Source: Minisyncoccota bacterium (GTDB taxonomy: Bacteria; Patescibacteriota; Minisyncoccia; Phycocordibacterales; SBAW01). From it: a stretch of DNA of 32,855 nt. The DNA lies in contig JAGOUZ010000002.1 of assembly GCA_018060985.1 (NCBI GenBank), positions 90,396 to 123,250 on the forward strand. The letters are read 5' to 3'. The notes under the pieces are model-generated. The model made no database searches and was not told the DNA's origin. It saw nothing but the letters and a program-made list of their open reading frames with translations. This document shows, in pieces, positions 2,151-2,386 of the stretch (positions within the stretch are counted from its first letter, which is position 1; each line of letters begins with the position of its first letter). Made by a program: the position numbers and the translations under genes.

Positions 2151-2224
2151 TGCCCGATCGTCTAATGGTAGGACAGTGGCCTTTGAAGCCATTAATTGGG
2201 GTTCGAATCCCTGTCGGGCAGCCA
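2151..2224 (+). tRNA. tRNA-Gln (anticodon UUG)
   Basis: This 74-base cloverleaf has acceptor stem TGCCCGA (2151-2157) pairing with TCGGGCA (2214-2220), discriminator G and encoded CCA (2222-2224). The D-arm contains TAATGGTAGGAC. The anticodon loop CTTTGAA carries TTG, which reads the Gln codon CAA, on stem GTGGC/GCCAT. The T-arm loop is TTCGAAT. The gene has its own TATAAT. Its 3' end is repeated 158 bp downstream at the end of a structured element. Confidence 0.95.
2204..2222 (+). repeat. direct repeat copy 1 (3' end of tRNA-Gln)
   Basis: This 19-base stretch covers part of the T-arm, the acceptor 3' strand, the discriminator and one further base. It recurs exactly at 2362-2380. Such a tRNA-end duplication is the usual signature of site-specific integration at a tRNA gene. 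Confidence 0.85.
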
Positions 2225-2380
2225 GCTAATTTTTCCATACCGCCAGGTATGTGAAAATTTGCTCGTACGTTTGAAGGGATTCGAAGGGCGGAAAAATTCG
2301 TTCGCGTAACGAATTTTGAGCCGGGGTCGCGAAAATTTTATCCGACAAAATTATTTGTGACCGAATCCCTGTCGGGCAGC
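2223..2380 (+). other. tRNA-linked structured element (three to four stems)
   Basis: The segment between the tRNA and the next ORF is full of paired sequence. There is a hairpin at 2228-2259 (AATTTT, two mismatches, CATACC, loop GCCA, GGTATG, AAAATT). An outer stem pairs AGGGATTCG (2275-2283) with CGAATCCCT (2362-2370). Inside it is a perfect 10-bp stem AAAATTCGTT/AACGAATTTT (2293-2302 and 2308-2317, loop CGCGT). A second inner stem pairs GGTCGCGAAAATTTT with AAAATTATTTGTGACC, with wobble pairs and a bulge (~2325-2362). The end duplicates the tRNA 3' terminus. It encodes no ORF. It could be a tiny integrated element, a tRNA-associated repeat family or a structured RNA processed with the tRNA; I cannot decide from one copy. 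Confidence 0.7.
2362..2380 (+). repeat. direct repeat copy 2 (tRNA-Gln 3' end)
   Basis: This is an exact 19-base copy of 2204-2222. It also forms the closing strand of the outer stem of the structured element, and it lies 6 bases before the next start codon. Confidence 0.85.
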
Positions 2381-2386
2381 TAATAT

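Follow-up and report, generated by a model that had tools for sequence, protein, structure and literature searches.

The window analysed here, a stretch of 32,855 nucleotides from a Minisyncoccota bacterium, holds a single tRNA gene, that for tRNA-Gln(TTG), which was identified by both ARAGORN and the Rfam tRNA model (61.8 bits). A dnaX-like gene (DNA polymerase III gamma/tau; 1063-2118, + strand) lies just 5' of it, and the gene order dnaX-tRNA-Gln is conserved in at least four further genomes of the same genus. Behind the tRNA, a 19-base stretch of its own 3' end (CGAATCCCTGTCGGGCAGC) recurs exactly, with a start-to-start spacing of 158 nt, as the initial annotation had described. The probability of an equal repeat arising by chance within the next 250 nt is approximately 2e-8. 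The right-hand copy, termed X'', starts exactly at T-loop C56. As in tRNA-site integrative elements, both junctions of the unit carry the tRNA 3' end as a direct repeat. The 158 nt of the unit are too few for a recombinase-sized protein.

The intervening sequence is strongly structured (Table 1). The perfect 10-bp stem noted earlier lies within helix P2, and the 9-bp outer stem is likewise present (2275-2283/2362-2370), with the repeated tRNA end as its 3' strand. The segment X'b can pair with either copy of the tRNA-Gln end, X or X''. Folding of positions 2223-2386 yields a minimum free energy of -59.4 kcal/mol, with z = -4.7 against dinucleotide shuffles. This copy is a single unit, with no tandem repetition, and lacks the P0 hairpin and the segment X'a, both of which are present in other copies.

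Table 1. Features of the unit behind tRNA-Gln and of its dispersed relatives (positions are those of the window unless loci are named)
Feature	Position	Strand	Remarks
tRNA-Gln(TTG), host gene	2151-2224	+	encoded CCA at 2222-2224; ARAGORN, Rfam
158-nt repeat unit (X + hairpin + X' + P2 + P3)	2204-2361	+	unit of the tandem repeats in relatives
X, tRNA-Gln 3' end from T-loop C56 on	2204-2222	+	left member of the 19-nt direct repeat
Terminator-like hairpin	2224-2263	+	between tRNA-Gln and core; arms AGCTAATTTTTCCATACC/GGTATGTGAAAATTTGCT
X'b, P1 5' strand	2275-2285	+	AGGGATTCGAA; exact reverse complement of tRNA T-arm 2202-2212
Covariance match to family model R1	2276-2370	+	84.1 bits; this copy is in the R1 training set, other copies were found independently
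P2	2287-2322	+	GGC (2287-2289)/GCC (2320-2322), internal loop, 10-bp stem 2293-2302/2308-2317
GGG joining strand	2323-2325	+	P2 to P3
P3	2326-2361	+	GTCGCGAAAATTTT...AAAATTATTTGTGAC; one G-U wobble is almost invariant
GTGAC, right end of the element	2357-2361	+	right end shown by dispersed copies
X'', second tRNA-Gln 3' end copy	2362-2380	+	P1 3' strand
Dispersed subfamily	loci L268-L273, L275		NGTGAGG[AT]CCGG...P0...CCGG[AT]CCGCAAGG...GTGAC

Distribution of related units

BLAST searches revealed a partial match in the same genome, located behind the tmRNA gene and with arms matching tmRNA rather than tRNA-Gln. Matches were also obtained in 32 of 60 relatives, where a tRNA or tmRNA gene immediately precedes most of the retrieved loci. 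A first alignment of 23 copies defined a three-way junction of helices P1, P2, and P3, in which 15 of 24 pairs show changes on both sides. The covariance model R1 detects seven copies in the window's genome, and 18 and 26 in two others. Across the order, R1 matches occur in 195 of 247 genomes, with copy number ranging from 0 to 26 among complete genomes. Matches extend to 46 of 362 genomes sampled phylum-wide, other classes included, and to 63 of 199 genomes from the phylum of an Elusimicrobiota metagenome-assembled genome (MAG).

At the gathering score, Rfam places no family over the element in the window or at eight further loci; the only hits were tRNAs and one downstream fluoride riboswitch. 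This riboswitch (L231:1726-1786, + strand) sits a short distance 3' of a unit behind tRNA-Val. No description of the family was found in the literature searched, which covered, incompletely, RtT and the repeats of Patescibacteria and Elusimicrobiota. The units thus appear to constitute a large family of tiny folded RNA elements that has so far gone undescribed.

Variation on this plan exists. At locus L007 (contig C10 of genome G049), the first unit behind tRNA-Gln carries the usual X'...X'' arms around a different core (AAGGTTCTCCCATATTTTTG...), which suggests further core families with the same layout. In variants at three other loci (L013, L153, and L217), GGGTGAGAA...CGCAAG and a second three-way junction take the place of GGG-P3, an arrangement that reads as if one unit had been built inside another.

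Conserved fold and target-copy rule

The family fold is a three-way junction, rather than the cloverleaf-like RNA considered in the initial annotation, with the core GCC-GGG-GUCGCG...GUGAC. The outer helix P1 is formed by X'', which repeats the 3' end of the host gene, and X', its reverse complement. In fuller copies, a P0 hairpin (AGC...AACTGCTT...GCG) splits X', so that pairing with the target copy comprises about 9-10 nt and then 6-7 nt. Compensatory base changes in the stems, proposed at the outset as a mark of a genuine element, are present across the family. Among 118 distinct copies, 95.3% of cells are paired and two-sided changes affect 23 of 24 pairs. The covariation score is 0.579 versus 0.175 for shuffled alignments, a value reached by 0 of 500 shuffles, and pairing drops to 25-53% in slid versions of the structure; fitting of the alignments to R1 favours the structure, yet compensated changes still lie far above both controls. 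A second set, drawn from other classes and Elusimicrobiota and fitted in the same manner, gives 95.9% paired cells and a score of 0.641 versus 0.172. The middle P2 pair occurs as GC, CG, AU, and UA, all four standard types, and for this reason a suspected likeness of the GAGCCG motif to group II domain V was dropped. In P3, almost every copy has G-U at one particular pair. In P2 and P3, G-U outnumbers A-C by 211 to 10 in the first set and by 128 to 2 in the second, which indicates that constraint acts on the tRNA-sense strand, in the simplest case as RNA.

A tRNA or tmRNA gene lies directly upstream on the same strand in 92 of 118 and 57 of 74 copies (about 78%), against a chance expectation for tRNA of roughly 1%, estimated from tRNA density. 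Many of the remaining copies follow tmRNA ends missed by ARAGORN, the C-terminal end of topA (five copies), or dnaJ, these two genes being presumed from recognised translated C-termini. The topA copies include 30-44 nt from the end of that gene. Within tRNAs, two entry points are used, one at T-loop C56 and the other just before the discriminator base, and most copies have the junction GTGAC|C with a purine as the next base.

Copies behind other tRNA genes, each with the 3' sequence of its own host, had been anticipated for a mobile repeat and were found. For X'', the score is 13.3 against the tRNA of the same locus versus 6.3 against other isotypes, with the own tRNA ranking best in 42 of 79 cases. 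The corresponding values for X' are 14.8 versus 6.7, and the own tRNA is best in 62 of 79. X'' is often decayed, and it has been lost in some copies within tRNA operons. Where X and X'' differ, X' agrees with X and with X'' at a similar rate (17 versus 12), which does not demonstrate that the P1 pairing is retained after insertion or that X'-X'' pairing is selected over X'-X.

Evidence for mobility

Several observations together indicate mobility, namely tandem arrays, a near-empty site, and a dispersed subfamily. Tandem units behind one tRNA are seen in relatives. At the near-empty site, tRNA-Cys and tRNA-Leu are separated by only 10 bp in genome G186, and its congener G049 carries a unit there. 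A member of another genus, G131, also has a unit at tRNA-Cys, so the difference between the congeners reflects a gain or a loss; the spacer sequence of the empty site differs as well, and a gain therefore looks the same as a precise loss. Four congeners share the dnaX-tRNA-Gln synteny of the window without the unit. In one Elusimicrobiota MAG, a 148-nt body, 88% identical between its two sites, stands behind tRNA-Val and tRNA-Ser, each time followed by the end of its own tRNA. Vertical inheritance is evident at some sites (tmRNA, Ser-GCT).

The dispersed subfamily, found in four Elusimicrobiota genomes, has about 125 nt in common. Its copies all end at GTGAC amid unrelated flanks, which identifies GTGAC as the true end of the element. 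They are mostly situated just behind genes or terminators, and one is nested in a tRNA-Arg unit, where no clear target duplication could be recognised. A target-duplication type of insertion was considered for loci L085 and L229 and rejected, as the right-hand repeat continues into the start of another unit, which suggests a second, truncated unit and not a clean duplication. No autonomous version bearing an open reading frame was found in seven dispersed copies and their 12-kb flanks, where only the roughly 125 nt are shared. Searches of viral contigs (exact scan) and of plasmids and phages (distant BLAST) returned no match. Neither an excised nor a circular nor an RNA form of the unit was observed, and no enzyme could be linked to it.

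Interpretation and relation to known systems

Taken together, the stretch behind tRNA-Gln is likely a copy of a family of small non-coding mobile elements with one exact entry position near gene 3' ends. The best reading is a non-autonomous, structured, RNA-coding element that very probably moves. The elements measure about 85-250 nt and would enter mostly tRNA genes, but also tmRNA, topA, and dnaJ. The repeating unit starts with the gene-end copy X and closes with GTGAC, the right end; the upstream gene is left intact, and the next end copy, X'', comes after GTGAC. In most copies, the internal X' is the reverse complement of X, and X' and X'' form P1 of the conserved junction with P2 and P3. 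The element would be co-transcribed with the upstream gene and may move through its folded RNA, in which X' and X'' would match element to target, whether by guiding it or by supplying the duplex portion of a folded substrate. The minimal mobile repeat targeting tRNA genes put forward in the initial annotation is thus supported by the further copies and their compensatory changes, except that its targets reach beyond tRNA genes to topA and dnaJ. A second acceptor strand that competes during tRNA maturation, also suggested there, would be a possible consequence.

A bolder version, which we consider a rather improbable proposal, casts the unit as a target-reading RNA retroelement. The transcript would carry a guide of about 17 nt, composed of X'a and X'b, split by P0, and complementary to one strand of the gene end. 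The 3' segment X'' would base-pair with the opposite strand and could act there as a primer for reverse transcription, so that the whole resembles an engineered prime-editing guide. If true, target choice would operate by base pairing, which would explain why one core, its arms matched each time, is found at tRNA-Ser, -Val, -Arg, tmRNA, and topA.

Alternatively, the unit might be a cis-acting RNA of benefit to the host, located in the 3' trailer of the tRNA and serving processing, quality control, or attenuation. X' would then pair with either the tRNA 3' strand or X'', so that the tRNA end is alternately blocked and free, in the manner of a riboswitch P1. The RNA-level constraint fits this role, as do the invariable sense orientation to the upstream gene, the capacity of both X and X'' to pair with X', and the production of E. 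coli RtT RNA from a tRNA transcript (annotated ncRNA rttR). However, complete genomes of one order hold anywhere between 0 and 26 copies, some copies lie at topA, at dnaJ, or dispersed without a tRNA, X'' is often decayed or lost, and insertions are nested and in tandem, all of which renders such a function unlikely, if still a plausible one. The view that 19 nt of tRNA 3' end reflect nothing more than a decayed partial tRNA duplication with chance stems is refuted by the family-wide covariation, the fold z-score, and the recurrence of one core at many genes, and we assign it practically no probability.

Two further readings start from known recombination systems. The units could be remnant att sites of integrative elements at tRNA 3' ends that have lost cargo and integrase, given that the direct repeat starts exactly at T-loop C56, as the identity block of an attB site would, and that a true serine-recombinase island occurs at tRNA-Glu in genome G027, between the tRNA and the unit. 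That island (about 10.4 kb on contig C18, at the tRNA-Glu 3' end, with a candidate large serine recombinase of 599 aa at L065:3479-5278, - strand) uses the tRNA-Glu end between tRNA and unit, which makes it a separate element. Against the att reading, a single folded core that shows compensatory changes is shared by two phyla and by more than 15 types of gene, att sites have no counterpart of the X' complementarity, and no copy contains an integrase, so this origin is very unlikely. A REP-like element moved by a Y1 (IS200/RAYT) transposase appears scarcely credible. Y1 matches occur in 20 of 24 element-rich versus 6 of 19 element-free genomes (Fisher p = 0.0013, kinship uncorrected), and one nested insertion has no clear target duplication. 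Yet a unit lies within 1.5 kb at only 1 of 30 Y1 loci, the Y1 genes are flanked by other repeats, and the window's genome has seven units and no Y1 match. Being enriched yet unlinked to the units, RAYT/Y1 was not retained as the mobiliser. RAYT-like Y1 genes of Patescibacteria and Elusimicrobiota (L276-L305) come with short repeats of their own (e.g., GGTACCTTTT, TGACCCC).

REP/BIME sequences with RAYT transposases are, like the family, small dispersed palindromic elements near gene 3' ends, but the family has another structure, no link to Y1 genes, and a target-copy rule. Islands and integrative and conjugative elements (ICEs) at tRNA sites share the exact entry in the tRNA 3' part and the copy that keeps the tRNA whole, although the family carries neither integrase nor cargo, spans 100-200 nt, and possesses a conserved RNA fold. 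Integron attC cassettes also combine folding recombination sites with tandem arrays; in the family, by contrast, no attC sequence boxes were noticed, the folded strand is the sense RNA strand, and the targets are gene 3' ends.

The closest known system is the RtT RNA (rttR) of the E. coli tyrT operon (RF00391), albeit as a distant structural parallel. Its units likewise form tandem arrays behind a tRNA, and every unit ends with the 3' end of that tRNA. Re-reading of E. coli tyrV revealed three tandem RtT units in which X' is GGGGAAGGAT and X'' is ATCCTTCCCCCACCACCA, the tRNA-Tyr end. In Salmonella (L307, Infantis AFYI01000003), two tandem units follow tRNA-Pro, and both end in the tRNA-Pro end ATCCTCTATCACCGACCA, which suggests that the target-copy rule applies to RtT as well. 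In this re-reading, X' (GGGGAAGGAT, GAGGAT) pairs with X'' and a multi-helix core follows. Covariation has been reported for some RtT helices (PMC8250186), and RtT-like sequences are known as dispersed repeats in Enterobacteria (PMC2965389). The RtT core differs from that of the family, which additionally occupies many more genes and at least two phyla. No RtT match was detected in the window by cmscan to E = 10, RF00391 found none in the window's genome while matching the E. coli control, and R1 scores merely 9.4 bits in the E. coli tyrT stretch. Membership of the window unit in RtT was rejected on these model scores, and RtT is retained as an analogue.

The family may accordingly be regarded as a new, widespread variant of the RtT kind, that is, a small structured RNA element with a target-copy rule. 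It reaches up to 26 copies in a genome of less than 1 Mb and occupies most sampled genomes of a large Patescibacteria order and a third of those from a second phylum. With a copy of its own target and the reverse complement in each unit, it raises the question of how an element of about 100 nt gains target-matching arms. The RtT repeats of E. coli, in turn, gain a wider comparative setting and a testable model in which they would be mobile units and not a one-off tRNA by-product.
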